Source of the DNA: Anastatus disparis
Taxonomy: Eukaryota; Arthropoda; Insecta; Hymenoptera; Eupelmidae
Assembly: GCA_017163975.1 (NCBI GenBank)
Contig: JAFFSR010000237.1
Coordinates: 2,914,001 to 2,978,000 of the forward strand
Length of the DNA: 64,000 bases
Direction of reading: 5' to 3'
Notes under the pieces: generated by a model
What the model saw: only the letters and a program-made list of their open reading frames with translations
Databases searched by the model: none
What the model was told of the DNA's origin: nothing
Shown here: piece after piece, positions 5,201 through 64,000 of the stretch
Position numbering within the stretch: position 1 is the first letter of the stretch
Layout: each line of letters begins with the position of its first letter
Made by a program: the position numbers and the translations under genes

Positions 5201-5670
5201 CATTCCTCTACAATAGTTTTTAATTTCTTTAATGCTATTTCGATTTTCCCATTGTTGTATATTACTATAATACTGACCGGTTTTTCTTCGACAGTTTTTA
5301 ATCCTTTTAAAACTATTCCCCACTCCCATTCTTTTATCTCCTCTAGTTCTAAATTTTTCTTTATGCCTACTATAACCCCTCCCTTTGCCCTCCCCTTTTT
5401 ATTCTCTCTGGTTGCTGCTTTCGTTACCCAATTAAAATTTTTGTCTAATTTTACGGTCCATTCCCCTTCTTTGTGCTTTTCAACCCATGTTTCTTGTAAT
5501 GCTACAATGTCGTAACTCCCGTAGAAATTTTTCAGCCCTATTATATTTTTTATACCCGCAATATTCCACGAGACTACTTTTATTCCTTCTCTCCCGCGTA
5601 ATCTATCTCTATTAGTAGCGAAATGTTCTGTTGTCGCATTGTACCATCTTCCCTTCTGTTTCGTCCCACC
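2248..5670 (-). pseudogene. LINE ORF2: APE endonuclease + reverse transcriptase, one nonsense codon
   Basis: A single minus-strand frame runs from after a stop at about 5671 to the stop at 2248. It is interrupted only by an in-frame TGA at 4113-4111, in the context LPIV-stop-IKELVIIING, probably a TGG to TGA change. The endonuclease shows VVSWNIAG, ALQETW, ITGDLNARVG and SDHLPV. The RT shows GFREGRATRDHI, FIDFKTAFDSIDR, GVRQGCPLSPTTFN and the catalytic FADD box. A CRIC...EHIWIC finger lies near the C terminus. There is no RNase H. No ATG precedes the endonuclease in this frame; the frame overlaps the end of ORF1 by up to about 58 nt in the +1 register, so translation probably depends on reinitiation or frameshifting after ORF1. 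Apart from the one stop it looks recently functional. Confidence 0.9.
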
Positions 5671-7258
5671 TTAACCATTGGCCTTCAATAAATAGCTTTT
5701 GATAACCTACTCGCGTGTATAAGTCGTACTTTCTCTCCTCCCTAGCTATCCCTTCTAACCATCTTTGAATTTCCTTTTCTCTCTCTGTATAATCATCATC
5801 GATCCAAATTTCTATGTCTTTTAAGAATTTTTTATTTTTCATTATTTCTATTTTATTTTCGCGTGATTCCAGTTCTACAACTAGACCGCCTCCTATCGCT
5901 CTAATTTTTTTAATATAGATTGCCGTCTCCATTTTTGTTTGAATTATTTCTGCTATTTCCTCTTTTATACCCTCTCCTACCGTTCTGATGCCCCTTATGA
6001 AAATATTCTTTTTCCGCGCATTTCTTTCTGCTAATTCGAACTCATATTCTTGCTTGTTAAGCGTATCTGGCATGTTTTTAAAATAGATTCTTTTTCTCTC
6101 TACTTCCCCCGTATTGCTATCTCCCTCGTTTGGTTCTGAGTTCGTAGCGTTATATTTATTCGCGTTTTTGTCGGTTTGTTCTACTCTAACAATATCCTCT
6201 CTCACTATTTCCCCTTCATTATATTCGCTAAATTGTTGTCGCGTCAATTCGTCTTTCCGCGCATCGCTCTCTTTTCGTTGTTTAACATATAAATTATTTT
6301 TCAGTTCGTTTATGTCCGCGTTAATTTTATCTATTTCGATTTTAACTTTTAGTAAATCTGCTTGAAATTCTTTTTTAAATTCGCGTATTTCAATCATAAC
6401 CCCTTTTTCTAAACTTATGCAATCAGCTTGACTTTTTAATTCTCTTATCTCTTTTTTTAACCCTTCGTTTTCCTCTGTATAGTTTTTTATCTGTTTTTTT
6501 AAAACCCACATTTCTTTTTCAATCTTACCGTTTTCTAACCTACATGCTTTAAACTCACTTGATAACTTTTCGAAGGCTTCGTGCCAATCATCGCGCGCTG
6601 CTTTTTCCCCTTTGCCTACCTCAGTATTCTTCTCTGCGTGTTCTAGCTCGCTGCCGTCTACTGTTCTTGTCTCTGTCGAACTTCCTTCTTGCACCATCGT
6701 TTTGTCTTCGTCTTTTCGTGTCCCAGCTTACTGATGCCCTTCTTGTGCGATCCTTTCTGCTATCGATAAATTCGCTGCTGCCCTCTCTTGGATTATCGCC
6801 TCATTCATATTGGATTCTTTATCTTTGTCTATCCCGTTGATTTTTATAGCGTCCTTTTCTTTGTCTTTTTCCCGGTGTTTTTTTTTGTCAATTTCGCTCT
6901 TTCTAAGTTTTTCTCCTTTTCTGTTTTTCCTTGCTCGAAATTATTTTCTGTGCACATTGGTGCAGCCTCGTCTTTCTTTTCTTGGCTTATTCGCGTGCTT
7001 ATATCTTTTTTGCTCGGTGAATGTTTCAATGATTTTCCTTTCGTAAATGATATTTCGAAACCCACACTGCCTTTTTCTAAGAAGTTTTTCATTCTTATTG
7101 ATTCTTCCTTTACTTCATCATCGATTACTTTTTTCGGTCTGCCCCTTTTTTTTAAATGCTTCTTCTTTCTCCTCATTCGTATCGGTTTTTTCTATATTTT
7201 TGGCATCTTCAAGTTTCTTGCCTTTATCGGCTTTGATTTTGTCGTTACTCGCGTCCAT
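5612..7258 (-). pseudogene. LINE ORF1: nucleic-acid-binding coiled-coil protein, 5' part damaged
   Basis: The intact part is 6697-5612 (361 codons from an ATG). It has a Lys/Glu-rich coiled coil at about residues 40-130, then an L1-ORF1p-like RRM region with NIFIRGIRTV and WIDDDYTEREKEIQRWLEG. Upstream, a better-placed ATG at 7258 opens a Lys-rich frame that shifts register in an A-run near 7150 (into KKRGRPKKV, AT-hook-like) and then meets stops near 6846 and 6734. Either ORF1 originally began at 7258 and has decayed, or the short form from 6697 is the functional protein. It packages LINE RNA as an RNP by analogy with L1 ORF1p. Confidence 0.7.
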
Positions 7259-7501
7259 TTTTTTTCTTTTTAACCTCACTTTGACTTTTCCACTTTCTTT
7301 TATCTTAAACCGTTTTTCTTTTCAATTTTTCACCAAAATAATACTGCCGTTTACTCTACTTTTCTTTATATATTCGCTGGGGATACTTTTTCTCTCATTT
7401 AAACTTAATTTCCCTGCTTTTAAGCCTATCTTTCTCAGAGCGACTTTTCGTGCGTGTTGACCCCACGCCGTCCCGATACGGAATCCTGTATATTTATGTA
7501 T

Positions 7502-8414
7502 ATTATGTAAATATCAATAATAGGTTGATTAGTATGAGATAATTTGCAAATTTTCATAATTAAATATTCCATAAACGTGCTAATTATCTAATCTAATTAT
7601 TGATAGAATTGATTTCAATGATTATTAGCTAATGAGGTAATCCTAAGTTTCAAGAGTTATCAAAAAAGTTCTGAACCACCCATCATTTTTATCAGATCTC
7701 GCTGTCAGATGCTTTTTACCTTTATTTTTTAATGAAAAGATTAATAAAATGCATGACGATTGGACAATTGATTTTAGTATTTTTATTGGTTTAATTTTAA
7801 AGTAATTTTGTTTGTTGAAATATCAAATAAAATAAAAATCATGTACTTTGCGCTAACATATAGTATTATCATAGTTTCTATAAACAAAGATTATTTCGAT
7901 AAGCAATTGAAAATTATCTACTTTTTGTAGATAAAATTGCCGAAAATATTATTTTTAATGTTTTAATGCGTTTCACATTAGTTAAAAATAAAATAGCAAT
8001 GTTATTAATACAAAACATATAGAATTGAATTATTAAATTATTTCATCCTTATTAAAAAAATATATCTTTTATATTTAATAAAAAAATAGTAATAAAATAA
8101 TTACGATATTTTTTTTTAATTTTTGAACTAAGAACAAATAAACTTGAACGATAATGTGCAAAATTTCTGAATACTTTTTAATTAGCAAAAACAGAAAAAG
8201 CAATCATTTCTGATTTTTCTTTCTCTCAAAAAGTATTAATTTTTATAAAAATAAATATAAATATATTTTCTATTGGAAACTGTGTGTAGAATACATTTGA
8301 ATTTTTATAATTTAATAATGACTTATTCTGATAATTCAAACCTATCCACTAAAACCCTTATAAAAAAGAAATTTTAACATTTCATAACCTCACTTTTAAT
8401 TTATAAAATTCAGG
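7502..8414. other. Amplicon non-coding sequence, conserved in all three copies
   Basis: AT-rich, no ORF. The block at about 7630-7735 (including GTTCTGAACCACCCATC) recurs at about 43205 and 57770. The following block up to TTCAGG recurs at about 43320-43986 and 59380-60076. Nothing regulatory is recognised. Confidence 0.7.
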
Positions 8415-8727
8415 AGGACCACCCCCTGAAGGATTTTGTGTGGGGGGGTTGGTAAGGCAGAGCACGACTGCTCCACTACTGTAGTTGAGCCGGGCCGTTC
8501 TGCCGGGTTGGTGTGAGCTCTCGATGCGCTAAAAAGGATGGGTATGAACGAGTCTCCCTGCCTGAGTAGGCCTGCACGTCCGGGCACACACCTTCCGGGG
8601 TAAAAAAGTATGGTTTCGAACGCGAAAACACCGTAACATATAGGTGGTCGGTGTGTCCCGTAAACAGATATAAAAAATTTATACGGGGGTAAGGAGGCTA
8701 TAGAACATATAACATATAACATTTAGG
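8415..8727. mobile_element. GC-rich retroposon-like insert of about 310 bp (copy-1 instance)
   Basis: This patch is far richer in G+C than its surroundings. Copy 3 lacks it: there TTCAGGAAATAATAG is continuous at about 60072, so copies 1 and 2 carry an insertion. The right end is a short repeat tail (ACATATAACATATAACATTT), as in some LINE/SINE 3' ends, and a possible imperfect 6-bp duplication (TTCAGG/TTTAGG) flanks it. The minus strand stays open for 108 codons (8722-8396), but that protein has no recognisable domain. Family not identified. Confidence 0.6.
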
Positions 8728-10218
8728 AAATAATAGTATACAAAAGTTCAATTTTACTCATAATTAAAAATTAATACTTTTTGCGAGAGAAAAAAATCAG
8801 GAACTGTATGGTTAAGTCAAAAATTATTACTTTTTCTTTTTTACTAACTAAAAAGTTTTCGGATATTTTCTCTGTAGTTGCTAAAGTGTACTCGTTCTTT
8901 GTGAAAAAATTGAAAAACAAATCGTTTTAAAACGAATCAACCTGGACAGTTTTATCTATACCAAATAGTATTTTTTTACCAATCAAATAAACTAAAACAC
9001 CGGCGTATTGAATTTTCGAAAATTTGAATATATTCTACAACTTATTTTTAACCAAATATATTCTATTGAGTTTATAATTGATTCTTCTTCAATAAAAAGT
9101 TTATTGAGAAATTAATTTAACAAAAAAAAAATTCAAAAAATCAAAATATTTCATAGACCTTAACTTTTAACTCCTTTTATTTGAATTTCTAAAAAATTTT
9201 TTGTGTCTGGGGTACCAAATAGAATGTATTTCCAAATTTTCAATACTAATCATGTGAGTTGCCATGAAAAGTCTCACATTTAGAAATATGAGTGAGTAAT
9301 TAAGATGAAAATAAATATTACTTTAGCATTTAAATATAAATTATCTAAAGGTGAGTTCGCATATCTATGTACTGTTCTAATGAAATAATTTATTTTTTTG
9401 CAAAGATTAATAGAGGAAAATGCATCTCTTATTAAAAATGCAATATTTCCTTCTTTAAGAAAAAATTAATCGCTTCGTATTATAGAAAAACATAAAAAGA
9501 ATTTTTAAAATAAAATTTATGGTAAACAATTTGATTTTTCAATTCATTCTTGAAAACGAAGAGATAAAATTTAATTTTTGCATCAAAGAAAATATTGTTT
9601 ATCATGAGGACTGTTAGAGATATGCTTGTTTAAAGTTGAGCTACAAAAATTAAAAAAAAAAATTCATCAAATAAAAATCATATTCTTCATTGTTAGATAA
9701 GATATATTTAGCTAAATTGTAGTCCATAATAACAATCTAATTTACATAAAATCTATTGTAATTTTGATTGCTTTAAAAGGGCGTGATGTAAGAGTTCGAA
9801 ATATCTAAAGTAGCATTGAAATTTATTGTTTTACTGTAAAATTCACTTTAATAGTAGCAAAACAAAATGTATCAGAAATTTATTAATCGGTAGTCCTTTC
9901 AATTGCAAAAAATGTAAGAAAGGTGTGGGTATATTTTTGAATATTTTTTAAAATAAATTATTGTCTAGATATATATTTTTAAAAATATTTCAATTTTTTA
10001 TTAAAAATATTTATAAATTTCTTACAATAAAAAATATTTAAAAAAAATACAGTCATAGGATTACATCTTTCATAGGAGCTAAAATGATAATATTGAATTT
10101 GGATTACAAAGTTCGCACGAGTCATAGTAATTCTGATATCGTTACATTTTTCGTCTATTATATTATATTACAATCCTTTTCGATTAAAAATTATATTGAG
10201 ACTTATATAATATTTTCT
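8728..10218. other. 3' flank of the PAM2/ankyrin gene, non-coding
   Basis: AT-rich and collinear with about 44303-45791 and 60077-61833. It contains no ORF above background. A minus-strand transcript of the ankyrin gene would terminate in its right part, but no single poly(A) site stands out among many AATAAA-like words. Confidence 0.6.
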
Positions 10219-11913
10219 CTATAAAAGTGAACTCCCATAAGCATCTTTTGCATTGATGTTAATGCCAGAATTAATTGATATTTCTATCAAATCTTGACAC
10301 TCTTCTTTAAAAATATGACGCAAAGATTTTGAAGTACTCTCCAAAATCTCTCTGTATTTTCTCAACAGTTTAACAATATCTAATCGATTATGATAAATTG
10401 CCAAATCGTAAGGTGTGAAATCACGTTTATCTTTGATTGCAGTATCGCAACCACTCGATAAAAGTATTTTGGCAATATTTACATTACCATTCTGCGATAC
10501 TTCGTGCAATGCCGTCAATCCGAAATCATCTTTAGCATTGACGTTTGCTTCTTGCTGTATTAGCAGACGTACAAATCTTGCATTACCATATTTGCACGCT
10601 AAATGTAAAATGGTTTTGTTGTTCTTATATTTAATAATATTTATGTTAGCAAAACCTTTGATCAATTCAGCAAATATATCATAGTTCCTTAATTTTAATG
10701 ATATACTCAGTGGAGTATTTCCGTACTCATCTTTTATATCGGTAGGTGCTCCACTATCTAATAATGATTTCAACTTTTCCAATGAGCCCATATGCACTGC
10801 TATATGTAACGCTGTTGTTTTAAATATTTTATCACAGCAAGTGCACCTAACTGAATAAATAAATTTATCAAAAACATTGTCAAAATTATCTATAGTTTCG
10901 TTAAAGGAACCCTTTTTCAAAATGTCACACAACTTGTATAGCCGCTCACTATTATCTATTATGGAATCTGATATGCGTATTAAATCTTGATTAGATTGTT
11001 TATCGTCCAAAACACTAGAAAAGTCACTGCTTTCACTGGAAGAATCTTCTGAACTGTATTCTCGTGATGGTACAAAGGGCAGTGCATATACGTTGAGTGT
11101 TCTTGTAACTAGTTTGGTCTTACAAAACTCATACAGGCGATCAATATTATCAGGAATGAATTTTAATATTTGCATTGAATCTATAATCAATTGATAACCA
11201 GCCGAAACACTAGAATAGCCACTGCTTGTACTAGAATAATCTTCTGAATTGTATTCTCTAGATGGTAAAAAAGACAATGCATAGACATTCAATGTTCTCA
11301 CAACTTGTTTGGTTTTAGAAAAATTGTACATATTAAAAGATGGTAGAAAAGACTGCGTGTGTACATTGAGTATACTTTTTTTACAGAATGGAATGAATAG
11401 TAATGTATGTACATTCAGTTTCCTTTTCTTAGACGATGGAATAAAAATCTTAGCATCAACGTTAAGTATTTTCTTGCTATAAGATGGAGTAAATGGCAGT
11501 GCATTTGCATTCAGTTTACTTTTTTTAAACGATGGTACAAATACCATTGCATTGACATTGAGTATACTCTTATTGTTTGACGGTATGAAAGGCAACGCAT
11601 TTACATTCAGTTTCCTTTTCTTAGATGATGGAATAAAAATCTCAGCATCAACGTTAAGTATGTTCTTATTATAAGATGGAATGAATGGCAGTGCATTTGC
11701 ATTCAGTTTACTTTTTTCAAATAATGGTATAAATACCATTGCATTGACATTGAGTATACTTTTATTGTATGACGGTACGAAAGGCAATGCATTCACATTT
11801 AGGTTCCTTTTCTTAGACGACGGAATAAAAACCGCAGCATCAACATTAAGTATACTATTATAAGATGGAATGAATGGTGATGTATTTACATTCAACATTG
11901 TATTATTGAACAT
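10219..11913 (-). CDS. PAM2-array / ankyrin-repeat protein, copy 1 (564 aa)
   Basis: Intronless frame from ATG at 11913. Residues 7-283 hold 14 motifs LNxx[A/T]xxFxP, mostly spaced 16 residues (7, 22, 38, 54 and so on to 182), then at 208 and 273. This matches the PAM2 consensus, whose Leu and Phe insert into the MLLE domain of PABPC or UBR5/Hyd. From 208 the motifs lie in modules of about 65 residues, each with a Ser/Glu/Asp-rich linker and a helix of the form IxDNxxRLYxxC. A Cys cluster (VRCTCCDKIF, about 354-364) precedes five ankyrin repeats (about 364-520: TALHIAVHMG, NTPLSISLK, TILHLACKYG, TALHEVSQNG, TPYDLAIYHN). The C terminus stops inside a sixth (INAKDAYGSSLL). There is no signal peptide or membrane segment, so it is predicted cytoplasmic. 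Inferred role: multivalent poly(A)-binding-protein scaffold affecting mRNA translation or stability; target unknown. Confidence 0.85.
   Translation of the reverse strand: MFNNTMLNVNTSPFIPSYNSILNVDAAVFIPSSKKRNLNVNALPFVPSYNKSILNVNAMVFIPLFEKSKLNANALPFIPSYNKNILNVDAEIFIPSSKKRKLNVNALPFIPSNNKSILNVNAMVFVPSFKKSKLNANALPFTPSYSKKILNVDAKIFIPSSKKRKLNVHTLLFIPFCKKSILNVHTQSFLPSFNMYNFSKTKQVVRTLNVYALSFLPSREYNSEDYSSTSSGYSSVSAGYQLIIDSMQILKFIPDNIDRLYEFCKTKLVTRTLNVYALPFVPSREYSSEDSSSESSDFSSVLDDKQSNQDLIRISDSIIDNSERLYKLCDILKKGSFNETIDNFDNVFDKFIYSVRCTCCDKIFKTTALHIAVHMGSLEKLKSLLDSGAPTDIKDEYGNTPLSISLKLRNYDIFAELIKGFANINIIKYKNNKTILHLACKYGNARFVRLLIQQEANVNAKDDFGLTALHEVSQNGNVNIAKILLSSGCDTAIKDKRDFTPYDLAIYHNRLDIVKLLRKYREILESTSKSLRHIFKEECQDLIEISINSGININAKDAYGSSLL
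11065..11895 (-). repeat. Coding tandem repeat: 48-bp PAM2 units, higher-order 192-bp unit
   Basis: The 16-residue units come in a four-unit cycle (LNVNALPFVPS, LNVNAMVFVPS, LNANALPFIPS, LNVDAEIFIPS with linkers ending KSI, KSK, KKI and KRK). This gives a 64-residue/192-bp higher-order repeat present about 2.5 times. Variation is concentrated at the x positions and linkers. Leu, Asn, Phe and Pro are kept in all 14 motifs; position 5 is Ala in 11 and Thr in 3. Confidence 0.9.
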
Positions 11914-12012
11914 TTTTAAGAATAAAAAATTGATTATACAAAATTTGAAACTTATAACAGGTTAACTAATTATAAAAGTATTATTTTGAATTGATCAGTA
12001 TAGTTACAAATT

Positions 12013-12296
12013 CAAAAAATGTTGAACTACGAATATCTATGAAATACTTGTTTGATGTTAATTGATCAGTACTTAAGAGTGAACTGAAGATATTTTTGAC
12101 AAGCACCTTATTTATATGTGAGCAGATTCAAATTACTCTTACCTAAGGTAATAATAAAAATGTTGAACTATGAATATCTATGAAATACTTGCTTGATATC
12201 AATTGATCAGTACTTAAGAGTGAACTGAAGATATTTTTGGCAAGCACCTTATTTATATGTGAGCAGATTCAAATTATTCTTACCTAAGGTAATAAA
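12013..12296 (-). promoter_or_regulatory. Tandemly duplicated core promoter of PAM2/ankyrin copy 1
   Basis: Two direct repeats of about 141 bp (about 12013-12150 and 12158-12293) each contain, on the minus strand, a TATAAATA box (12109-12116; 12250-12257). In each a TCAGTT initiator has its A 31 bp downstream (12085; 12226). That is the standard TATA-to-+1 spacing of arthropod promoters. The proximal start gives a 5' UTR of 172 nt before the ATG at 11913. An additional TTACCTTAGGTAAGA element closes each repeat. Confidence 0.7.
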
Positions 12297-13562
12297 ATTA
12301 TTATTCTTTAATCCTAAATTTTTGACGTGGGAGGAGCAAATAGATATACAACAATAAAAATTCTTATTACATCTAGGATTAAGGGATTAGTGTATTGATT
12401 CTTTAATCTCACTAGCATTGAAGATTTTAAGGATTTAATACCTGAATAATTACTTTTGAGTTGACAATCAAAACTTTCTAAAGTAATTAAAGAATTAAGA
12501 AATTAAAAAATTTTTATGTTTAATATTGAATTTTGTCCAAAATTCAAATTGTTTCTTTTCAAACCGTTCAAATTGTTTAACAAATTAATATTATTAATTA
12601 AATAAAACTAAAAATTAAAATATTAATTTATATGTGTTTTCGTATATTTGCATCTAATAATGTACATTTCCGTAACCAAAATAAGAGTCACGTGTAAATA
12701 TATGCTGTGTAGAAAATAATAAATGATTTTCAAATTAATATTCATATTTAAAAAAAATTTATACAATACACATATGGTACCCTGCAAAAATCAGTGTATT
12801 TTACATCAATTCACAAAAAAGATACAAGTTTTTGCTGTGTATGCTGAAATTTGAATTTTTCGAACTACTGAAGTAAGCTTTGGACATTCTTTAATAAAGT
12901 TATATCACTGTAATTAGAGTGAAAATCCAAAAAATAAGATGAAAATATTGAAATTTATTTAAAAATTGATATTTTTTGTTGAAAAATTAGAAATTTCCAA
13001 TTTTCTAAGAATCCCTTCATTTATGCAAGAATGACATTATGAAGTCAAATTTATTTGGTAGTTATATTAGTTCATTAGGTTATTAGAGACCTTACGGCCC
13101 ACGAGTTATGGGTTCGAAGGTTCAGCGAGTGATCATGGAAGTATGACAAAATAACCTCAAGGGCTTATAATAAAGGTACTTATGTCTACTTTAAGTTAGT
13201 GTTTACAATATTTTAAAATTAATTCAAAGATTAATAAAAAAATTATATTTTGGTTCTCAGGTTCCAATATATATGTATCTACTTGGATAATATAAGTAGA
13301 TTTCAAATGTGTAATATTCATTTAACATAACATTAGTTTGGATCGAAAAAAACATTTTTTATTGAAAAGTTGCCTCATACATGGGGCAACTTGCCTTTTG
13401 AGTTGGGGCTATTTTCCGATTGTACTATTAAACTTGGAAAATACAATTAAATTTCTTATTTAACGAATTTTTTCAAATTTTTGACTATTTTATTAATCAT
13501 TAATACATTAATAATCACAAAAAGATAACATTAACAAAATAATATTTGTATGAATATTAAAT
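12297..13562. other. Upstream non-coding part of amplicon copy 1
   Basis: AT-rich, collinear with 47870-49131 of copy 2 and nearly identical to it. No gene is seen. It holds short features such as an AGGTTATT/AATAACCT-ended 85-bp segment (13075-13160) with a GGGTTCGAAG word, and a small GTTGCC...GGGGCAAC inverted repeat near 13370. Confidence 0.6.
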
Positions 13563-15230
13563 TACATTATATTAAATTTTTGTATGGTTTTTATTTTCAA
13601 TTTATTGGGACTTGCAAGGGGAATATCTAGATATTAGAACTAAAATACTTTTTCTACTTTTGCGATATTTTTTCTTACATAAAATTCTAAATATAGTCCA
13701 TATCTATAATATCTATAAAATAATTCAATGAAATTTAAAAATAAATTCACGTAAAAATGAACGAGAACAGTCATAAGTAAAAATCTAAAAGAAATTTTTA
13801 TTTTATTAAATCTCTGTAACCAACAAACTGAATATTATAAAAAGCTTACCTTTAAAAAGGTATATGATGGGCAAGTATGCTTAGCAATTTATTTTAATTA
13901 ACGATTTTAACTATTTTGATGTCTTAAACATATTATAAACTATTTTTTTTAGTGATAAAATCAAACCTTGACATTAGAATTTTATGAAATCATGAAACAA
14001 ATGTCAAGTATTTTTTTTATAATTGAATTTTACATGGTTCACAGAATTAATCCATTTATTTAGTATTTGAAACTATCGAATCTTGACATTAAAATTTCAT
14101 GAAATCACGAAACAAATGTCAAGTATATAGTAAAAGTGATAAAACTATGGCACCTTACCATAATTTTTAATAAAAGATTTTTCAAATTTTTTTTTTATAA
14201 ATAAACGTTGAATTTTACTAACCAAATTACTTCTTATCTTTTTTATCATTTATTTAAAAGTGTTCTGAAATTTTTTAAATCTTATTAAATATTTACAAAA
14301 TTACTTGCTAGGCCCGTGAATAAATATTTTATTGGTGAAATGCTTAATGAATGTATGTTCTAACATTTAAACTAGAAATTATAATAGGTGTAAGATACAG
14401 GTAATATACAATTATTTAAATGTATTAAGATGATACGCTCCTGAAAAATATACTGAACATAAAATACAATATTGTGTACAACGGGCCTAGCAAGTAATTT
14501 TGTAAATATTTAATAAGATTTAAAAAATTTCAGAACACTTTTAAATAAATGATAAAAAAAGATAAGAAGTAATTTGGTTAGTAAAATTCAACGTTTATTT
14601 ATAAAAAAAAAATTTGAAAAATCTTTTATTAAAAATTATGGTAAGGTGCCATAGTTTTATCACTTTTACTATATACTTGACATTTGTTTCGTGATTTCAT
14701 GAAATTTTAATGTCAAGATTCGATAGTTTCAAATACTAAATAAATGGATTAATTCTGTGAACCATGTAAAATTCAATTATAAAAAAATACTTGACATTTG
14801 TTTCATGATTTCATAAAATTCTAATGTCAAGGTTTGATTTTATCACTAAAAAAATAGTTTATAATATGTTTAAGACATCAAAATAGTTAAAATCGTTAAT
14901 TAAAATAAATTGCTAAGCATACTTGCCCATCATATACCTTTTTAAAGGTAAGCTTTTATAATATTCAGTTTGTTGGTTACAGAGATTTAATAAAATAAAA
15001 ATTTCTTTTAGATTTTTACTTATGACTGTTCTCGTTCATTTTACGTGAATTTATTTTTAAATTTCATTGAATTATTTTATAGATATTATAGATATGGACT
15101 ATATTTAGAATTTTATGTAAGAAAAAATATCGCAAAAGTAGAAAAAGTATTTTAGTTCTAATATCTAGATATTCCCTTGCAAGTCCCAATAAATTGAAAA
15201 TAAAACCATACAAAAATTTAATATAATGTA
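13563..15230. repeat. 1.67-kb near-perfect palindrome (arms about 750 bp, 165-bp loop)
   Basis: The left arm starts TACATTATATTAAAT (13563) and the right arm ends with its reverse complement (15230). The arms meet around GCTAGGCCCG (about 14310) and CGGGCCTAGC (about 14480). Within each arm a 47-bp imperfect palindrome with CTTGACATT/AATGTCAAG ends is present twice. There is no ORF. Copy 2 lacks this block and the sequence to about 16186, joining GAATATTAAAT directly to AAATTACTATTG, so it is an insertion in copy 1 or a deletion in copy 2. Confidence 0.9.
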
Positions 15231-28853: not shown

Positions 28854-29115
28854 TTCACTAGCGTTTATTATTTATCTTTTAAGGAGCAGAAAATTTACTT
28901 TTAAAATTATACAATCACGGTTTGTTCACTGACACTAGAAGCTAAGTATCTCAAGAAATTTATTTTTCAATTTAATAAAATCTATAACAGTATTCTTCAA
29001 AAAGACTAAAAGTCAAATTTTTATTTATACGTAAATCCCTATTCACTCCTCCCATACTTAACGAGATTGAGCTGAGAATTAATTTTTGAAAAGCCAATAG
29101 GTAAGAATGGCTTAC

Positions 29116-39982: not shown

Positions 39983-40449
39983 ATAATTTCTTATTTCCTT
40001 GGTTTATTGAAATAAATTCATATACATATTTTCTCTTCAATATTTTTACTATCTTTACTCAGGTAAACTTAATTCAGACATAAATAAAACGACTATATAT
40101 TTTAAAACCCATAAATAAATTTTTAATCGTTATGCATATTCCATCGCATTATATCAAAGTGTAATATAGTTATATTATTATTATATAAATTTGTTTAAAT
40201 ATCAGTAAAAATATAAATCTATTTAACTACTTTAAACGTGTGAAAATTTTCTTAGGATAAAATTATAACTTCAAATTCACATAAATTTCTAAAATCACAC
40301 TTTTTTATATTTATTAGTTATAAATCAGTCTTCATACTATAAAATCTCTTTAACTTTTATCATTTATTTTAATGTTTTTAATCCAATTTAAAATCGAATC
40401 AGTGACTGTTTGAAGAGTTTTATTTTTCTATAAATAATTTTATGGAACA

Positions 40450-42593: not shown

Positions 42594-43986
42594 ATTTTAA
42601 AATTACTATTTAATTTTAAATTATTAAATTTTTCTTCAAACAGAAGAATAGTTTTGATGTAATTACTTACTAATATAAAAATTATGTATGATAAACATTT
42701 CTTCTGTATCTTATTTTTTAGTTACTTGATAATATAAGATCTATTAATTTTAAATCGAAATTATTCAGATTTTATTTTATTGCATGTCGGATCTAACAGT
42801 ATATGTTATAGATGATTTAAATGTTAGTTTGAGATTTTACTTAAGAATGCTAACAATTAATCATCGTTTATAGTAAATTATATATTTTACTAATTATAAT
42901 GAAATAAATTCATGAATCGATCCTGTTTCGTTGAAAAAAGTTCTTTATATCTTTAATTATAAATTTTCTAATCAAATGCAATTTTTAATCATTGCTACTC
43001 GTATTATAATCACAGCTATCATATTTCACGCAAATTTATCACCAAATTCCAATAAATGTGTATATTTATGTATATTATGTAAATATCAATAATAGGTTGA
43101 TTAGTATGAGATAATTTGCAAATTTTCATAATTAAATATTCCATAAACGTGCTAATTATCTAATCTAATTATTGATAGAATTGATTTCAATGATTATTAG
43201 ATGAGGTAATCCTAAGTTTCAAGAGTTATCAAAAAAGTTCTGAACCACCCATCATTTTTATCGGATCTCGCTGTCAGATGCTTTTTACCTTTATTTTTTA
43301 ATGAAAAGATTAATAAAATGCATGACGATTGGACAATTGATTTTAGTATTTTTATTGGTTTAATTTTAAAGTAATTTCGTTTGTTGAAATATGAAATAAA
43401 ATAAAAATCATGTACTTTGCGCTAACATATAGTATTATCATAGTTTCTATAAACAAAGATTATTTCGATAAGCAATTGAAAATTATCTACTTTTTGTAGA
43501 TAAAATTGCCGAAAATATTATTTTTAATGTTTTAATGCGTTTCACATTAGTTAAAAATAAAATAGCAATGTGATTAATACAAAACATATAGAATTGAATT
43601 ATTAAATTATTTCATCCTTATTAAAAAAAAAATATCTTTTATATTTAATAAAAAAAATAATAATAAAATAATTACGATATTTTTTTTTAATTTTTTAACT
43701 AAGAACAAATAAACTTGAACGATAATGTGCAAAATTTCTGAATACTTTTTAATTAGCAAAAACAGAAAAAGCAATCATTTCTGATTTTTCTTTCTCTCAA
43801 AAAGTATTAATTTTTATAAAAATAAATATAAATATATTTTCTATTGGAAACTGTGTGTAGAATACATTTGAATTTTTATAATTTAATAATGACTTATTCT
43901 GATAATTCAAACCTATCCACTAAAACCCTTACAAAAAAAGAAATTTTAACATTGCATAACCTCACTTTTAATTTATAAAATTCAGG

Positions 43987-44302
43987 AGGACCACCCCTGA
44001 AGGATTTTGTGGGGGGGGGGGGGTCGGTAAGGCAGAGCACGACTGCTCCACTACTGTAGTTGAGCCGGGCCGTTCTGCCGGGTTGGTGTGAGCTCTCGAT
44101 GCGCTAAAAAGGATGGGTATGAACGAGTCTCCCTGCCTGAGTAGGCCTGCACGTCCGGGCATACACCTTCCGGGGTAAAAAAGTATGGTTTCGAACGCGA
44201 AAACACCGTAACATATAGGTGGTCGGTGTGTCCCGTAAACAGATATAAAAAATTTATACGGGGGTAAGGAGGCTATAGAACATATAACATATAACATTTA
44301 GG
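43987..44302. mobile_element. GC-rich retroposon-like insert (copy-2 instance)
   Basis: Same insert and same position as 8415-8727, with a longer G run (44012-44023) and a few substitutions. It was therefore present before copies 1 and 2 separated. The minus strand is again open (109 codons, 44297-43968) despite the indel differences. Confidence 0.6.
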
Positions 44303-45791
44303 AAATAATAGTATACAAAAGTTCAATTTTACTCATAATTAAAAATTAATACTTTTTGCGAGAGAAAAAAATCAGGAACTGTATGGTTAAGTCAAAAATT
44401 ATTACTTTTTCTTTTTTACTAACTAAAAAGTTTTCGGATATTTTCTCTGTAGTTGCTAAAGTGTACTCGTTCTTTGTGAAAAAATTGAAAAACAAATCGT
44501 TTTAAAACGAATCAACCTGGACAGTTTTATCTATACCAAATAGTATTTTTTTACCAATCAAATAAACTAAAACACCGGCGTATTGAATTTTCGAAAATTT
44601 GAATATATTCTACAACTTATTTTTAACCAAATATATTCTATTGAGTTTATAATTGATTCTTCTTCAATAAAAAGTTTATTGAGAAATTAATTTAACAAAA
44701 AAAAAATTCAAAAAATCAAAATATTTCATAGACCTTAACTTTTAACTCCTTTTATTTGAATTTCTAAAAAATTTTTTGTGTCTGGGGTACCAAATGGAAT
44801 GTATTTCCAAATTTTCAATACTAATCATGTGAGTTGCCATGAAAAGTCTCACATTTAGAAATATGAGTGAGTAATTAAGATGAAAATAAATATTACTTTA
44901 GCATTTAAATATAAATTATCTAAAGGTGAGCTCGCATATCTATGTACTTTTCTAATGAAATAATTTATTTTTTTGCAAAGATTAATAGAGGAAAATGCAT
45001 CTCTTATTAAAAATGCAATATTTCCTTCTTTAAGAAAAAATTAATCGCTTCGTATTATAGAAAAACATAAAAAGAATTTTTAAAATAAAATTTATGGTAA
45101 ACAATTTGATTTTTGAATTCATTCTTGAAAACGAAGAGATGAAATTTAATTTTTGCATCAAAGAAAATATTGTTTATCATGAGGACTGTTAGAGATATGC
45201 TTGTTTAAAGTTGAGCTACAAAAATTAAAAAAAATTCATCAAATAAAAATCATATTCTTCATTGTTACATAAGATATATTTAGCTAAATTGTAGTCCATA
45301 ATAACAATCTAATTTACATAAAATCTATTGTAATTTTAATTGCTTTAAAAGGGCGTGATGTAAGAGTTCGAAATATCTAAAGTAGCATTAAAATTTATTG
45401 TTTTACTGTAAAATTTACTTCAATAGTAGCAAAACAAAATGTATCAGAAATTTATTAATCGGTAGTCCTTTCAATTGCAAAAAATGTAAGAAAGGTGTGG
45501 GTATATTTTTGAATATTTTTTAAAATAAATTATTGTCTAGATATATATTTTTAAAAATATTTCAATTTTTTATTAAAAATATTCATAAATTTCTTACAAT
45601 AAAAAAAACTTGTTAAAAAATACAGTCACAGGATTACATCTTTAATAGGAGCTAAAATGATAATATTGAAAATGTATTACAAAGTTCGCACGAGTCATAG
45701 TAATTCTGATATCGTTACATTTTTCGTCTATTATTTTAAATTACAATCCTTTTCGATTAAAACTTATATTAAGACTTATATAATATTTTCA
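44303..45791. other. 3' flank of PAM2/ankyrin copy 2, non-coding
   Basis: Collinear with 8728-10218; no gene seen. Confidence 0.6.
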
Positions 45792-47486
45792 CTATAAAAG
45801 TGAACTCCCATAAGCATCTTTTGCATTGATGTTAATGCCAGAATTAATTGATATTTCTATCAAATCTTGACACTCTTCTTTAAAAATATAACGCAAAGAT
45901 TTTGAAGTACTCTCCATAATCTCTCTGTATTTTCTCAACAGTTTAACAATATCTAATCGATTATGAAAAATTGCCAAATCGTAAGGTGTGAAATCACGTT
46001 TATCTTTGATTGCAATATCGCAACCACTCGATAAAAGTATTTTGGCAATATTTACATTACCATTCTGAGCTGCTTCGTGCAATGCCGTCAATCCGAAATC
46101 ATCTTTAGCATTGACGTTTGCTTCTTGCTGTATTAGCAGACGTACAAATCTTGCATTACCATATTTGCACGCTAAATGTAAAATGGTTTTGTTGTTCTTA
46201 TATTTAATAATATTTATGTTAGCAAAACCTTTGATTAATTCAGCAAATATATCATAGTTCCTTAATTTTAATGATATACTCAGTGGAGTATTTCCGTACT
46301 CATCTTTTATATCGGTAGGTGCTCCACTATCTAATAATGATTTCAACTTTTCCAATGAGCCCATATGCACTGCTATATGTAACGCTGTTGTTTTAAATAT
46401 TTTATCACAGCAAGTGCACCTAACTGAATAAATAAATTTATCAAAAACATTGTCAAAATTATCTATAGTTTCGTTAAAGGAACCCTTTTTCAAAATGTCA
46501 CACAACTTGTATAGCCGCTCACTATTATCTATTATGGAATCTGATATGCGTATTAAATCTTGATTAGATTGTTTATCGTCCAAAACACTAGAAAAGTCAC
46601 TGCTTTCACTGGAAGAATCTTCTGAACTGTATTCTCGTGATGGTACAAAGGGCAGTGCATATACGTTGAGTGTTCTTGTAAGTAGTTTGGTCGTACAAAA
46701 CTCATACAGGCGATCAATGTTATCAGGAATGAATTTTAATATTTGCATTGAATCTATAATCAATTGATAACCAGCCGAAACACTAGAATAGCCACTGCTT
46801 GTACTAGAATAATCTTCTGAATTGTATTCTCTAGATGGTAAAAAATACAATGCATAGACATTCAATGTTCTCACAACTTGTTTGGTTTTAGAAAAATTGT
46901 ACATATTAAAAGATGGTAGAAAAGACTGCGTGTGTACATTGAGTATACTTTTTTTACAGAATGGAATGAATAGTAATGTATGTACATTCAGTTTCCTTTT
47001 CTTAGACGATGGAATAAAAATCTTAGCATCAACGTTAAGTATTTTCTTGCTATAAGATGGAGTAAATGGCAGTGCATTTGCATTCAGTTTACTTTTTTTA
47101 AACGATGGTACAAATACCATTGCATTGACATTGAGTATACTCTTATTGTTTGACGGTATGAAAGGCAACGCATTTACATTCAGTTTCCTTTTCTTAGATG
47201 ATGGAATAAAAATCTCAGCATCAACGTTAAGTATATTCTTATTATAAGATGGAATGAATGGCAGTGCATTTGCATTCAGTTTACTTTTTTCAAATAATGG
47301 TATAAATACCGTTGCATTGACATTGAGTATACTTTTATTGTATGACGGTACGAAAGGCAATGCATTCACATTTAGGTTCCTTTTCTTAGACGACGGAATA
47401 AAAACCGCAGCATCAACATTAAGTATACTATTATAAGATGGAATGAATGGTGATGTATTTACATTCAACATTGTATTATTGAACAT
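45792..47486 (-). CDS. PAM2-array / ankyrin-repeat protein, copy 2 (564 aa)
   Basis: Same length and layout as copy 1, ATG at 47486: 14 LNxxAxxFxP motifs (residues 7-283), two modules with the Ser/Glu linker and the IxDNxxRLYxxC helix, five ankyrin repeats, and a truncated sixth. About ten residues differ from copy 1 (for example ALY for ALS at about 213, TKLL for TKLV, HEAAQNG for HEVSQNG, CDIAI for CDTAI, REIM for REIL, RYIF for RHIF). By eye, most nucleotide differences between the two are non-synonymous. At several sites copy 2 agrees with copy 3, so copy 1 carries the derived state there. Confidence 0.85.
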   Translation of the reverse strand: MFNNTMLNVNTSPFIPSYNSILNVDAAVFIPSSKKRNLNVNALPFVPSYNKSILNVNATVFIPLFEKSKLNANALPFIPSYNKNILNVDAEIFIPSSKKRKLNVNALPFIPSNNKSILNVNAMVFVPSFKKSKLNANALPFTPSYSKKILNVDAKIFIPSSKKRKLNVHTLLFIPFCKKSILNVHTQSFLPSFNMYNFSKTKQVVRTLNVYALYFLPSREYNSEDYSSTSSGYSSVSAGYQLIIDSMQILKFIPDNIDRLYEFCTTKLLTRTLNVYALPFVPSREYSSEDSSSESSDFSSVLDDKQSNQDLIRISDSIIDNSERLYKLCDILKKGSFNETIDNFDNVFDKFIYSVRCTCCDKIFKTTALHIAVHMGSLEKLKSLLDSGAPTDIKDEYGNTPLSISLKLRNYDIFAELIKGFANINIIKYKNNKTILHLACKYGNARFVRLLIQQEANVNAKDDFGLTALHEAAQNGNVNIAKILLSSGCDIAIKDKRDFTPYDLAIFHNRLDIVKLLRKYREIMESTSKSLRYIFKEECQDLIEISINSGININAKDAYGSSLL

Positions 47487-47585
47487 TTTTAAGAATAAAA
47501 AATTGATTATACAAAATTTGAAACTTATAACAGGTTAACTAATTATAAAAGTATTATTTTGAATTGATCAGTATAGTTACAAATT

Positions 47586-47869
47586 CAAAAAATGTTGAAC
47601 TACGAATATCTATGAAATACTTGTTTGATGTTAATTGATCAGTACTTAAGAGTGAACTGAAGATATTTTTGACAAGCACCTTATTTATATGTGAGCAGAT
47701 TCAAATTACTCTTACCTAAGGTAATAATAAAAATGTTGAACTATGAATATCTATGAAATACTTGCTTGATATCAATTGATCAGTACTTAAGAGTGAACTG
47801 AAGATATTTTTGGCAAGCACCTTATTTATATGTGAGCAGATTCAAATTATTCTTACCTAAGGTAATAAA
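47586..47869 (-). promoter_or_regulatory. Tandemly duplicated core promoter of PAM2/ankyrin copy 2
   Basis: Same double arrangement as copy 1: TATAAATA at 47682-47689 and 47823-47830, with TCAGTT initiators whose A lies at 47658 and 47799, each 31 bp downstream. The duplication therefore predates the split of copies 1 and 2. Confidence 0.7.
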
Positions 47870-49381
47870 ATTATTATTCTTTAATCCTAAATTTTTGACG
47901 TGGGAGGAGGAAATAGGTATACAACAATAAAAATTCTTATTACATCTAGGATTAAGGGATTAGTGTATTGATTCTTTAATCTCACTAGCATTGAAGATTT
48001 TAAGGATTTAATACCTGAATTACTTTTGAGTTGACAATCAAAACTTTCTAAAGTAATTAAAGAATTAAGAAATTAAAAAATTTTTATGTTTAATATTGAA
48101 TTTTGTCCAAAATTCAAATTGTTTCTTTTCAAACCGTTCAAATTGTTTAACAAATTAATATTATTAATTAAATAAAACTAAAAATTAAAATATTAATTTA
48201 TATGTGTTTTCGTATATTTGCATCTAATAATGTACATTTCCGTAACCAAAATAAGAGTCACGTGTAAATATATGCTGTGTAGAAAATAATAAATGATTTT
48301 CAAATTAATATTCATATTTAAAAAAAATTTATACAATACACATATGGTACCCTGCAAAAATCAGTGTATTTTACATCAATTCACAAAAAAGATACAAGTT
48401 TTTGCTGTGTATGCTGAAATTTGAATTTTTCGAACTACTGAAGTAAGCTTTGGACATTCTTTAATAAAGTTATATCACTGTAATTAGAGTGAAAATCCAA
48501 AAAATAAGATGAAAATATTGAAATTTATTTAAAAATTGATATTTTTTGTTGAAAAATTAGAAATTTCCAATTTTCTAAGAATCCCTTCATTTATGCAAGA
48601 ATGACATTATGAAGTCAAATTTATTTGGTAGTTATATTAGTTCATTAGGTTATTAGAGACCTTACGGCCCACGAGTTATGGGTTCGAAGGTTCAGCGAGT
48701 GATCATGGAAGTATGACAAAATAACCTCAAGGGCTTACAATAAAGGTACTTATGTCTACTTTAAGTTAGTGTTTACAATATTTTAAAATTAATTCAAAGA
48801 TTAATAAAAAAATTATATTTTGGTTCTCAGGTTCCAATATATATGTATCTACTTGGATAATATAAGTAGATTTCAAATGTGTAATATTCATTTAACATAA
48901 CATTAGTTTGGATCGAAAAAAACATTTTTTATTGAAAAGTTGCCTCATACATGGGGCAACTTGCCTTTTGAGTTGGGGCTATTTTCCGATTGTACTATTA
49001 AACTTGGAAAATACAATTAAATTTCTTATTTAACGAATTTTTTCATATTTTTGACTATTTTATTAATCATTAATACATTAATAATCACAAAAAGATAATA
49101 TTAACAAAATAATATTTGTATGAATATTAAATAAATTACTATTGATATAAAATGAATAAAAAAGCGATTTTCCAAAAAATTCGTATTAATTAACATTGTA
49201 TTGGAAAGTTGCCCCAAATGATTAAAAATCTTTGAACTGTCAATACTAAACTTAAACTTAACGTATCGGGTTATAATAGGTGTCAAAATTTTTGTTTTTT
49301 AATGTACCATAAACTTATTATTACGTGACGAATTGTTTCGTTCACACAGAATTATGAGATGTATTTTTAGACAACTTTTTA
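47870..49381. other. Upstream non-coding part of amplicon copy 2
   Basis: Collinear with 12297-13561 and 16187-16434. It contains the empty site (about 49130) for the 2.6-kb palindrome block of copy 1. No gene. Confidence 0.6.
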
Positions 49382-61833: not shown

Positions 61834-64000
61834 CTATAAAAGTGAACTCCCATAAGCATCTTTTGCATTGATGTTAATGCCAGAATTAATTGATAACTCA
61901 ATCAAATCTTGACACTCTTCTTTAAAAATATGACGCAAAGATTTTGAAGTACTCTCCAAAATCTCTCTGTACTTTCTTAACAGTTTAACAATATCTAATC
62001 GATTATGAAAAATTGCCAAATCGTAAGGTGTGAAATCACGTTTATCTTTGATTGCAATATCGCAACCACTCGATAAAAGTATTTTGGCAATATTTACATT
62101 ACCATTCTGAGCTGCTTCGTGCAATGCCGTCAATCCGAAATCATCTTTAGCATTGACGTTTGCTTCTTGCTGTATTAGCAGACGTACAAATCTTGCATTA
62201 CCATATTTGCACGCTAAATGTAAAATGGTTTTGTTGTTCTTATATTTAATAATATTTATGTTAGCAAAACCTTTGATTAATTCAGCAAATATATCATAGT
62301 TCCTTAATTTCAATGATATACTCAGTGGGGTATTTCCGTACTCATCTTTTATATCGGTAGGTGCTCCACTATCTAATAATGATTTCAACTTTTCTAATGA
62401 GCCCATATGCACTGCTATATGTAACGCTGTTGTTTTAAATATTTTATCACAGCAAGTGCATCTTACCGAATAAATAAATTTATCGAAAACTTTGTCAAAA
62501 TTATCTATAGTTTCGCTAAAGGAACCCTTTTTCAAAATGTCACACAACTTGTATAGCCGCTCACTATTATCAATTATGGAATCTGATATGCGTATTAGAT
62601 CTTGATTAGAATGATTTTCGTCCAAAACACTAGAAAAGTCACTGCTTTCACTGGAAGAATCTTCTGAATTGTATTCTTCTGATGGTACAAAGGGCATAGC
62701 ATATACGTTGAGTGTTCTCGTAACTAGTTTGGTCTTACAAAACTCATACAGGCGATCAATGTTATCAGGAATGAATTTTAATATTTGCATTGAATCTGGA
62801 ATAATTTGATTACCAGCCGAAACACTGGAATAGCCACTGCTTGTACTAAAATAATCTTCTGAATTATATTCTAGTGGCGGAATAAAGGGCAACGCATTTA
62901 CATCCAGAGTTCTCACAGGTTGGTTGGGTTCACACAACTTGTATAGAAGCTCTCTATTGTCTCTGATAAGACTTAATACTTGCATTGACTTTTTATTCAT
63001 ATCATAAACACTGGAAACACTAGAAAACTTACTGCTGACACTGGACGAATCTTCTGAATTGTAACCTCGCGATGGTGTAAAAGAGATTGTATTAACATTC
63101 AGTGTTCTCACTAGATTGGTTTTACACAACTGATATAGATAATCTAAATTATCAAGGATAAATTTTAATATTTTCATTAAATCGGTATTCAAATGATTCT
63201 CAGTTGAAACACTAGAAAAGTTACTGCCAGTGGTAGAATAATCCTCTGAATTGTATTCTCTAGATGGTAAAGAAGGCAAAACATATACATTCAATGTTCT
63301 CACAACTTGTTTGGTTTTAGAAAAATTGTACACATCAAAAGATGGTAGAAAAGACGGCGCGTGTACATTGAGTATACTCTTTTTACACGATGGAATGAAT
63401 AGTAATGCATGTACATTCAGTTTCCTTTTCTTAGACGATGGAATAAAAATCTCAGCATCAACGTTAAGTATTTTCTTGCTATAAGACGGAATGAATGCCA
63501 ATGCATTTGCATTCAGTTTACTTTTTTTAAACGATGGTACAAATACCATTGCATTAACATTGAGTATACTCTTATTGTTTGACGGTACGAAAGGCAACGC
63601 ATTTACATTCAGTTTCCTTTTCTTAGACGATGAAATAAAAATCTCAGCATCAACGTTAAGTTTTTTCTTGGTATAAGATGGAATGAATGGCAATGCATTT
63701 GCATTCAGTTTACTTTTTTTAAACGATGGTACAAATACCATTGCATTAACATTGAGTATACTCTTATTGTTTGACGGTACGAAAGGCAACGCATTTACAT
63801 TCAGTTTCCTTTTCTTAGACGATGGAATAAAAATCTCAGCATCAACGTTAAGTTTTTTCTTGGTATAAGATGGAATGAATGGCAATGCATTTGCATTCAG
63901 TTTACTTTTTTTAAACGATGGTACAAATACCATTGCATTAACATTGAGTATACTCTTATTGTTTGACGGTACGAAAGGCAACGCATTTACATTCAGTTTC
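61834..64000 (-). CDS. PAM2-array / ankyrin-repeat protein, copy 3 (715+ aa, 5' end beyond window)
   Basis: The minus-strand frame is open to the last base; the true start lies outside. It has at least 17 PAM2-type motifs, including three nearly identical 64-residue cycles at the edge, so the array is longer than in copies 1 and 2. Four instead of two modules follow (motif, NSED-rich linker, IxDNxxxLYxLC helix), then the CTCC cluster and five ankyrin repeats almost identical to copy 2. A few motifs are decayed: LNVDAEIFISS lacks the Pro, LNVYVLPSLPS lacks Ala and Phe, and LDVNALPFIPP has Asp for Asn. The stop falls at the same place as in the other copies. The ankyrin half is far more conserved between copies than the module region. 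Confidence 0.83.
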   Translation of the reverse strand, partial: KLNVNALPFVPSNNKSILNVNAMVFVPSFKKSKLNANALPFIPSYTKKKLNVDAEIFIPSSKKRKLNVNALPFVPSNNKSILNVNAMVFVPSFKKSKLNANALPFIPSYTKKKLNVDAEIFISSSKKRKLNVNALPFVPSNNKSILNVNAMVFVPSFKKSKLNANALAFIPSYSKKILNVDAEIFIPSSKKRKLNVHALLFIPSCKKSILNVHAPSFLPSFDVYNFSKTKQVVRTLNVYVLPSLPSREYNSEDYSTTGSNFSSVSTENHLNTDLMKILKFILDNLDYLYQLCKTNLVRTLNVNTISFTPSRGYNSEDSSSVSSKFSSVSSVYDMNKKSMQVLSLIRDNRELLYKLCEPNQPVRTLDVNALPFIPPLEYNSEDYFSTSSGYSSVSAGNQIIPDSMQILKFIPDNIDRLYEFCKTKLVTRTLNVYAMPFVPSEEYNSEDSSSESSDFSSVLDENHSNQDLIRISDSIIDNSERLYKLCDILKKGSFSETIDNFDKVFDKFIYSVRCTCCDKIFKTTALHIAVHMGSLEKLKSLLDSGAPTDIKDEYGNTPLSISLKLRNYDIFAELIKGFANINIIKYKNNKTILHLACKYGNARFVRLLIQQEANVNAKDDFGLTALHEAAQNGNVNIAKILLSSGCDIAIKDKRDFTPYDLAIFHNRLDIVKLLRKYREILESTSKSLRHIFKEECQDLIELSINSGININAKDAYGSSLL

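Follow-up and report, generated by a model that had tools for sequence, protein, structure and literature searches.

The 64-kb stretch of Anastatus disparis DNA analyzed here (the window, C235:2914001-2978000, from an assembly of 939 Mb and 399 contigs) contains three copies of a gene that encodes an N-terminal array of short repeated units followed by an ankyrin domain (copies 1 to 3, table 1). The units are well supported by their sequence as PAM2 motifs, ligands of the MLLE domain of the poly(A)-binding protein (PABP), and the genes probably constitute a young family of multivalent ligands of the cytoplasmic PABP (PABPC) in which the PAM2 arrays are mostly joined to an ankyrin domain. Copy 3 is cut by the end of the window and its open reading frame (ORF) was completed from the genome.

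The reading frame of copy 1 is uninterrupted from ATG to stop. The first-pass annotation had described 14 N-terminal units in this protein that fit LNxx[A/T]xxFxP at a 16-residue spacing with invariant Leu, Asn, Phe, and Pro, and had proposed a protein that joins 14 to 17 or more such motifs to an ankyrin domain. On re-reading, all 14 units matched LN..[AT]..F.P, and the joined architecture was borne out by copies 1 and 2 with 14 units each and copy 3 with 17 strict units (15 inside the window). The spacing and the invariance stood in part. Successive units of copy 1 are separated by 15, 16 (ten times), 26, and 65 residues; thus, 12 units are packed at 15-16 residues and the final two lie in longer modules. 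The four core residues are invariant in copy 1, but copy 3 carries four deviating units (LNVDAEIFIS, LDVNALPFIP, LNVYVLPSLP, and LNVSELPIVT) beside its strict ones. Leu at position 3 (where a hydrophobic residue, usually Leu, is expected), Asn at position 4 (a polar residue, usually Asn), Phe at position 10 (the main determinant of PAM2), and Pro at position 12 are each present in 14 out of 14 units of copy 1, and position 5 is Pro, Val, or Thr in 12 units and Ala in the remaining two. At position 7, 16 out of 17 strict units of copy 3 carry Ala. A higher-order repeat of four units (192 bp) is visible in the packed array of copy 1; LNVNALPFVPSYNK and LNVDAEIFIPSSKK are single array units and LNVHTLLFIPFCKK is a Thr-bearing unit.

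A search for the strict motif in all six frames of the window identified 43 matches, every one of them within the three gene copies, and a 16-residue unit drawn at random from the same composition would fit the motif with a probability of ∼1.6e-4. Across the genome, the motif written as a degenerate DNA pattern gave 114 matches compared with 37 for a reversed-pattern control. Among the matches listed, at least 67 places fall within a 0.39-Mb cluster on the contig of the window (C235 2,911,838-3,296,436); those listed elsewhere include the eRF3 locus, the locus L001, and an overlapping pair on contig C218 that reads LNPNAKEFNPNAKPFTP. The overlapping pair presumably belongs to ataxin-2, and L001 is, by its sequence, a putative Paip2 (a Pfam scan of an upstream exon gave nothing above a cut-off).

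The PAM2 identity proposed in the first-pass annotation is well supported by four lines of evidence: the Pfam profile, matches to the PAM2 of eRF3 in the PDB, an intact MLLE pocket in the PABPC of the same genome, and a closely matching motif at the eRF3 locus of the insect. The Pfam PAM2 profile (PF07145, cut-off 20 bits) scored 87.6 bits in copy 1, 90.2 in copy 2, and 159.7 in the full copy 3, so that all three proteins lie above the cut-off, and PAM2 and Ank families were the sole families above cut-off in these proteins. Pfam did not assign the units to any unrelated structural repeat, the outcome that the annotation had named as speaking against its proposal. All five paralogue stretches that were tested besides copies 1 and 2 passed the PAM2 cut-off (g5 barely, with 20.7 bits). 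Repetition inflates summed profile scores, and ten of the 14 units of copy 1 (22 residues each) were therefore scanned singly. Seven were matched by the PAM2 profile, with 22.4, 21.5, 21.1, 20.1, 19.9, 19.4, and 12.9 bits (4 out of 10 at or above the cut-off), and three gave no PAM2 match (LNVHTLLFIP, LNVHTQSFLP, and LNVYALSFLP). None of five control sequences (two of six shuffles made and three column-permuted arrays) was matched by the profile.

A search of all PDB chains with one unit (E ≤ 10) matched a single sequence, residues 67-81 of eRF3a, weakly (E = 1.6, aligned RQLNVNAKPFVPNVH). A profile of ten units ranked GSPT1 (2rqh) first and eRF3a (5lzt) second (E = 0.006 and 0.008), followed on ranks three to five (∼0.02) by one spider toxin that matched mainly through FIPxxKK, and 186 array residues used as a single query gave no PDB match. 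According to the available part of the structural study, residues 67-81 of eRF3 are the co-crystallized PAM2-N, which makes contacts through Leu69, Asn70, Val71, Ala73, Phe76, and Pro78; Phe is described there as the main binding determinant and Ala at position 7 as invariant (PMC2854688). A second source, also available in part, gives the PAM2 consensus as LNxxAxEFxP and a residue bulkier than Ala as very unfavorable (PMC7356810).

The candidate receptors are encoded in the same genome. A whole-genome search for the MLLE family identified two domains, one in the cytoplasmic PABP (locus L038, best PDB match PABP1, E = 3e-48) and one in a UBR5/Hyd-like protein (locus L039), and KITGMLLE is present in both. 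The MLLE domain of the PABP is identical to the human domain in 70 out of 82 residues and in all 18 of the PAM2-contacting residues compared. The eRF3 locus of the insect was identified through its GTPase exon (E = 3e-94 to eRF3a), and an exon with STLNVNAAEFVPSF (core LNVNAAEFVP) lies ∼2.5 kb upstream on the same strand. This N-terminal exon had no match in a PDB search; the two exons probably form one eRF3 gene. The best units of copies 1 and 3, g6a, and g6b agree with the insect's own eRF3 motif in 8 out of 10 core positions, and the array thus repeats a motif that already seems to serve for PABP in the same cell.

The three copies belong to a cluster on one contig (2.91-3.30 Mb) that comprises four intact array-ankyrin genes and, in addition, four array loci that are short, decayed, or broken. 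An extra copy outside the window (copy 0) encodes a protein 100% identical to that of copy 1, and the proteins of copies 0, 1, and 2 are 98-100% identical. A genome search with the array alone gave 15 matches from 43 candidates, all of which are located at 2.911-3.296 Mb of this contig. Units such as LNVNASSFTR are found in g4. The net charge of the arrays per 100 residues varies (+10 in copy 1, +12 in copy 3, +15 in g4, -14 in g5, 0 in g6a, and +2 in g6b). By recurring despite such shifts in charge and in period, the motif resembles a linear motif in its behavior, with the caveat that g5, the most divergent array, has also decayed furthest when judged by the strict rule.

Ankyrin-only paralogues are located elsewhere in the genome. 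They display 48-57% identity to copy 1 across approximately residues 275-564, and from 94 matching places the 18 best ankyrin-only paralogues were read. The full PAM2 motif is present in none of these 18, and a partial motif (e.g., MNCNARAFSS) opens five of them at the same place as unit 1. The motif array was probably gained by amplification from such a partial N-terminal start; alternatively, the motif may have been lost in the ankyrin-only paralogues. Three ankyrin-only paralogues on contigs C225 and C256 (L017, L018, and L020) carry a different C-terminal repeat made of acidic units of the DNEYADGYV type, and L019 on the same contigs contains an ORF of the same length as L017; with these acidic repeats, repeat growth recurs in the family. 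A database search with the whole protein returned 194 proteins (E ≤ 0.001). The query coverage of 15-48% among the 120 listed and the ankyrin domains of the matches point to the ankyrin part of copy 1, and LN.{5}F.P was found in none of the 120 listed matches (candidates sharing most words were scored). Residues 1-300 likewise gave no array homologue among 7,991 scored candidates sharing most words. The search for homologues of the same architecture thus led to paralogues within the genome and to no array homologue among the scored database candidates.

Selective constraint was estimated by comparing copy 3 with copies 1 and 2, the pairwise codon counts between copies being mutually dependent. 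The ratio of non-synonymous to synonymous substitution rates (dN/dS) was 0.32 and 0.36 overall, 0.14 and 0.11 within the ankyrin part, and 0.41 and 0.42 within the array. Within the units, codon steps were counted on a tree for 42 unit slots defined by their period in copies 1, 3, and g6 (37 of them strict), excluding the near-identical copy 2 and the decaying g4 and g5; an alternative count that chose units by their motif is biased, and the period-based count is the one relied on. At the codons for Leu, Asn, Phe, and Pro, 15 of the steps were synonymous and 7 were non-synonymous (P = 1e-5 compared with neutral); at the other motif positions except Ala, these numbers were 20 and 26 (P = 1e-3).

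The tandem 141-bp element found upstream of copies 1 and 2 is also present upstream of copy 3. Each 141-bp copy contains TATAAATA followed ∼31 bases on by TCAGT, which resembles an initiator (Inr). A TATA box and an Inr constitute a core promoter, and the element is taken as a putative core promoter. The leader from the nearer TCAGT to the ATG of the ORF is ∼173 nt long and contains no other ATG. The strict TATA...TCA[GT]T pattern occurs ten times on both strands of the window, four of these before copies 1 and 2; it is also found upstream of g4, g6, and 6 out of 17 ankyrin-only paralogues tested, and was not found upstream of g5. Stretches similar to those upstream of the array genes (L034:2228-2548 and L035:7615-7965) precede ORFs beside g5 and g6 that, judged by eye, encode C2H2-type zinc fingers, and the upstream region is perhaps a promoter common to unrelated neighbors, the array genes and the zinc-finger ORFs.

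If the genes are expressed, the array-ankyrin proteins would be cytosolic, with a string of PAM2 motifs as the N-terminal half and the ankyrin domain as the C-terminal part. Each motif would engage the MLLE domain of PABPC from the same insect, and possibly also that of UBR5/Hyd, through Leu3, Asn4, Val5, Ala7, Phe10, and Pro12, as in PAM2-N of eRF3. With 14-17 motifs, a single molecule could bind several PABPC molecules at once, along the same poly(A) tail or across different ones, and avidity would allow the array to outcompete PABPC partners with a single motif. The roles of translational regulator, condensate scaffold, and antagonist that the first-pass annotation had proposed are all hypothetical. 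The ankyrin domain would bring a further partner; its predicted model (residues 331-564 alone, mean predicted local distance difference test score (pLDDT) 80) retrieved generic ankyrins in fold searches, mostly designed ankyrin repeat proteins (DARPins) and also viral ankyrin proteins, with no hint of the partner. Both a PAM2 unit and the whole gene would have been amplified in tandem to give rise to the family. The more specific proposal, that a single N-terminal PAM2 motif was expanded within a few hundred kb into 14- to 17-fold, ankyrin-fused arrays that act as hyper-multivalent PABPC ligands, either cross-linking poly(A) messenger ribonucleoproteins (mRNPs) or soaking up PABP as sponges, has roughly even chances of being correct, and under it the state before the amplification would survive in those ankyrin-only paralogues that begin with a partial MNxNAxxF.

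Several observations weigh against the family being one of multivalent PABPC ligands. Position 7 is Ala in 11 units of copy 1 and Thr in the other three, which may make these three weaker PABP ligands, and Glu at position 9, a preference of known motifs, is absent from all 14 units of copy 1 and all 17 strict units of copy 3. Other Pfam families matched all three column-permuted control arrays, with E values as low as 3.8e-7, and in two cases the cut-off of the matched family (21 bits) was exceeded (FNIP 21.9 and GhoS 22.9), indicating that ∼22 bits are obtainable from repetition alone; the 88-160 bits of the three proteins, together with single units at the cut-off, exceed this. The difference between core and other motif positions in the 42 slots is weak (P = 0.07, Fisher), so that the whole unit is constrained and the core alone is not clearly so. 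Between copies 1 and 2 there are 4 synonymous and 10 non-synonymous differences, and no constraint is visible at such a distance. The identity between copies 1 and 3 is uneven (99.6% over 487 bp upstream, 95.3% over 500 bp downstream, and 82-86% further out), a patchwork which suggests that gene conversion may cloud the comparisons between copies. Neighboring paralogues are decayed or broken (stops in g4, two strict units out of ∼10 in g5, a broken frame in g6). An AlphaFold2 model of copy 1 draws weak beta strands through the array, with a pLDDT of ∼57-75 at residues 1-140. Finally, a tether with two or four PAM2 motifs suppressed nonsense-mediated decay no more than a tether with one motif, according to the available part of that study (PMC5118804), and valency need therefore not matter in every setting.

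Among the alternative explanations, the one that survives best, still a doubtful one, is a PABP sponge or antagonist that titrates PABPC (a selfish, anti-viral, or counter-host factor) and for which the ankyrin part is dispensable. Arrays without an in-frame ankyrin part do exist in g5 (open, with mostly decayed units) and in the short g6a and g8, and the cluster is young and rich in copies, one of which is 100% identical in protein. However, the dN/dS of the ankyrin part is lower than that of the array in the comparisons of copy 3, which, within the limits set by the patchwork between copies 1 and 3, argues that the ankyrin part is of importance, and a scan of viral contigs in which nine stretches matched a pattern confirmed none as a relative. 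It is improbable that the genes are functionless recent duplicates kept only by their youth and by gene conversion. The near-identity of copies 0, 1, and 2, the 10 non-synonymous and 4 synonymous changes between copies 1 and 2, the 95-99.6% identity to copy 1 of the flanks adjoining copy 3, and the broken or decayed state of the neighboring array loci fit such a history, but an overall dN/dS of 0.32-0.36 for copy 3, four complete open ORFs, a leader without ATG, and a TATA/Inr-like element that also precedes diverged paralogues do not.

A similarly small chance is given to UBR5/Hyd, not PABPC, as the main target, in which case the array would gather the E3 ligase and the ankyrin domain would bring its substrate. 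The two MLLE domains share KITGMLLE and ankyrin domains commonly bind proteins; on the other side, the units resemble the motifs of eRF3, which are PABPC ligands, and the present evidence does not separate the two receptors. The weakest alternative is a structural repeat such as a beta-solenoid that resembles PAM2 by convergence and buries its Leu and Phe, and it is very improbable: the AlphaFold2 strands are regular at the units and the packed array of copy 1 keeps a steady period, but the model is based on a three-sequence alignment and has a mean pLDDT of 49, confident unrealistic beta-solenoids are an artefact of AlphaFold2 reported for repeats (PMC11795689, available in part), the period is 17 in g6, motifs in copy 1 also lie 26 and 65 residues apart (the gaps of 30-34 and 90 counted within the family are skipped decayed units), the charge of the array flips among paralogues, and the unit profile ranks the PAM2 of eRF3 first of all PDB chains. 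A family of multivalent PABPC ligands thus remains the preferred explanation, and its members form a natural series within one genome, made up of array-ankyrin genes, loci with an array alone, short and decaying arrays, and ankyrin-only paralogues that lack the full motif. This series would allow the amplification of a short linear motif to be followed and the effects of valency, spacing, and avidity to be tested directly on poly(A) mRNPs, for which the only test of higher valency found in the literature, as far as the sources were available, used the engineered PAM2 tethers. The partner of the ankyrin domain would tell what the cell ties to its poly(A) tails.

Table 1. Features of the Window and of the Surrounding Array Cluster (window positions unless a contig is given).
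Feature	Position	Strand	Description
Copy 1	10219..11913	-	Single ORF, 564 aa: PAM2 array, Ser/acidic modules, and ankyrin domain; stop codon 10219-10221
Copy 1 packed array	11341..11895	-	12 PAM2 units, spacing 15-16 residues, residues 7-191
PAM2 unit 13	11263..11292	-	LNVYALSFLP; within a 65-residue Ser/acidic module; no Pfam PAM2 match singly
PAM2 unit 14	11068..11097	-	LNVYALPFVP; within a second 65-residue module; 12.9 bits singly, below the Pfam cut-off
Copy 1 ankyrin domain	10222..10818	-	With an N-terminal CTCC-containing beta hairpin and a C-terminal tail; from Pfam and a predicted model
Promoter-like element, copy 1	12015..12295	-	Two tandem 141-bp copies
Segment carrying copy 1	7487..13573	.	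98.7% identical to 43059-49143
Copy 2	45792..47486	-	564 aa, 14/14 PAM2 units, ankyrin domain
Promoter-like element, copy 2	47588..47868	-	Same duplicated element
Segment carrying copy 2	43059..49143	.	Duplicate of the copy 1 segment
Copy 3	61834..64000 (cut by window end)	-	774 aa when complete, with its ATG 158 bases outside the window; ankyrin domain
Copy 0	C235:2910622-2912313		Array-ankyrin gene outside the window
g4	C235:2983515-2984915		Array with an acidic module, then stops; 15 relaxed units, 10 of them strict
g5	C235:3291019-3291597		Array only, acidic, open; 2 strict units in ∼10 slots
g6	C235 from 3295396		Period of 17 residues; broken, with frames of 154 and 106 residues and more motifs beyond
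g8	C235:3088623-3088844		Short; two intact motifs
LINE-type retroelement	2248-6727	-	Domains for reverse transcriptase and endonuclease; a stop near 4111 splits ORF2
TDRD12-like ORF	26694-28871	-	Long ORF; DEAD helicase above cut-off, Tudor 20.9 bits (just below cut-off 23)
ORF after the homeodomain ORF	29812-30225	-	About seven near-perfect 33-bp repeats, Gln/Asn/Tyr-rich
Homeodomain ORF	30314-30784	-	66 bits
Zinc-knuckle-like ORF	38895-39692	+	20.1 bits, below cut-off 27
LRR-like ORFs	50107-51703	-	Weak, sub-cut-off likeness to leucine-rich repeats (LRR)

Several neighboring features were recorded in the window. The long interspersed nuclear element (LINE) occupies the interval between the stretches that the copy 1 segment has in common with that of copy 2 (1453-1809 and from 7487). 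The TDRD12-like ORF is presumably a gene of the PIWI-interacting RNA pathway type. In a database search, two proteins matched its product at E ≤ 0.001, one from Polistes dominula (35% identity) and one from Prorops nasuta (31%), and the array genes are considered nuclear insect genes because both of these named matches are Hymenoptera. The zinc-knuckle-like ORF has a duplicate at C235:2904001-2904516, and the segment containing this duplicate is a 99.2% match to 39174-49179. The LRR-like ORFs are possibly F-box proteins, and a similar pair is found beside g8 (L060, C235:3080001-3090000), which suggests that amplification of the arrays may have involved other genes as well.

The array genes can be compared with four known PAM2 systems. 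Ataxin-2, a PAM2 protein that is not known to carry a long array of motifs, self-aggregates via its C-terminal region. It promotes the aggregation of PABPC1-bound mRNA into stress granules, according to the available part of the source (PMC11347130). The closest likeness at the level of the motif is to eRF3/GSPT1, with a difference in 1 out of 10 positions between the array unit LNVNALPFVP and LNVNAKPFVP of eRF3a. However, eRF3 as described in the available sources carries two overlapping motifs (PAM2-N and PAM2-C) in front of its GTPase, binds PABPC1 one-to-one, and has no array or ankyrin repeats. In the PAM2 and PABP literature, as far as it was available, described proteins carry one to four PAM2 motifs and no precedent for as many as in the arrays was found. 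The statement of the first-pass annotation that no described family has this design was nevertheless too strong, since Upa1 of Ustilago maydis joins PAM2 to ankyrin repeats and Upa2 of the same fungus has four PAM2 motifs. Upa2, called a multi PAM2 protein, needs its four motifs for the interaction with the MLLE of Pab1; it differs in being a dimerizing scaffold with a C-terminal GWW, a feature not found in copies 1 and 3, and the available part of the source names no ankyrin repeats (PMC9249222). Upa1 carries FYVE and RING domains, neither of which was above cut-off in the Pfam scan of copies 1 to 3, and is a fungal protein with three motifs, but with one PAM2 and two PAM2-like motifs joined to five ankyrin repeats it shares the combination of the array-ankyrin genes, as far as the available part of its description goes (PMC4466420).

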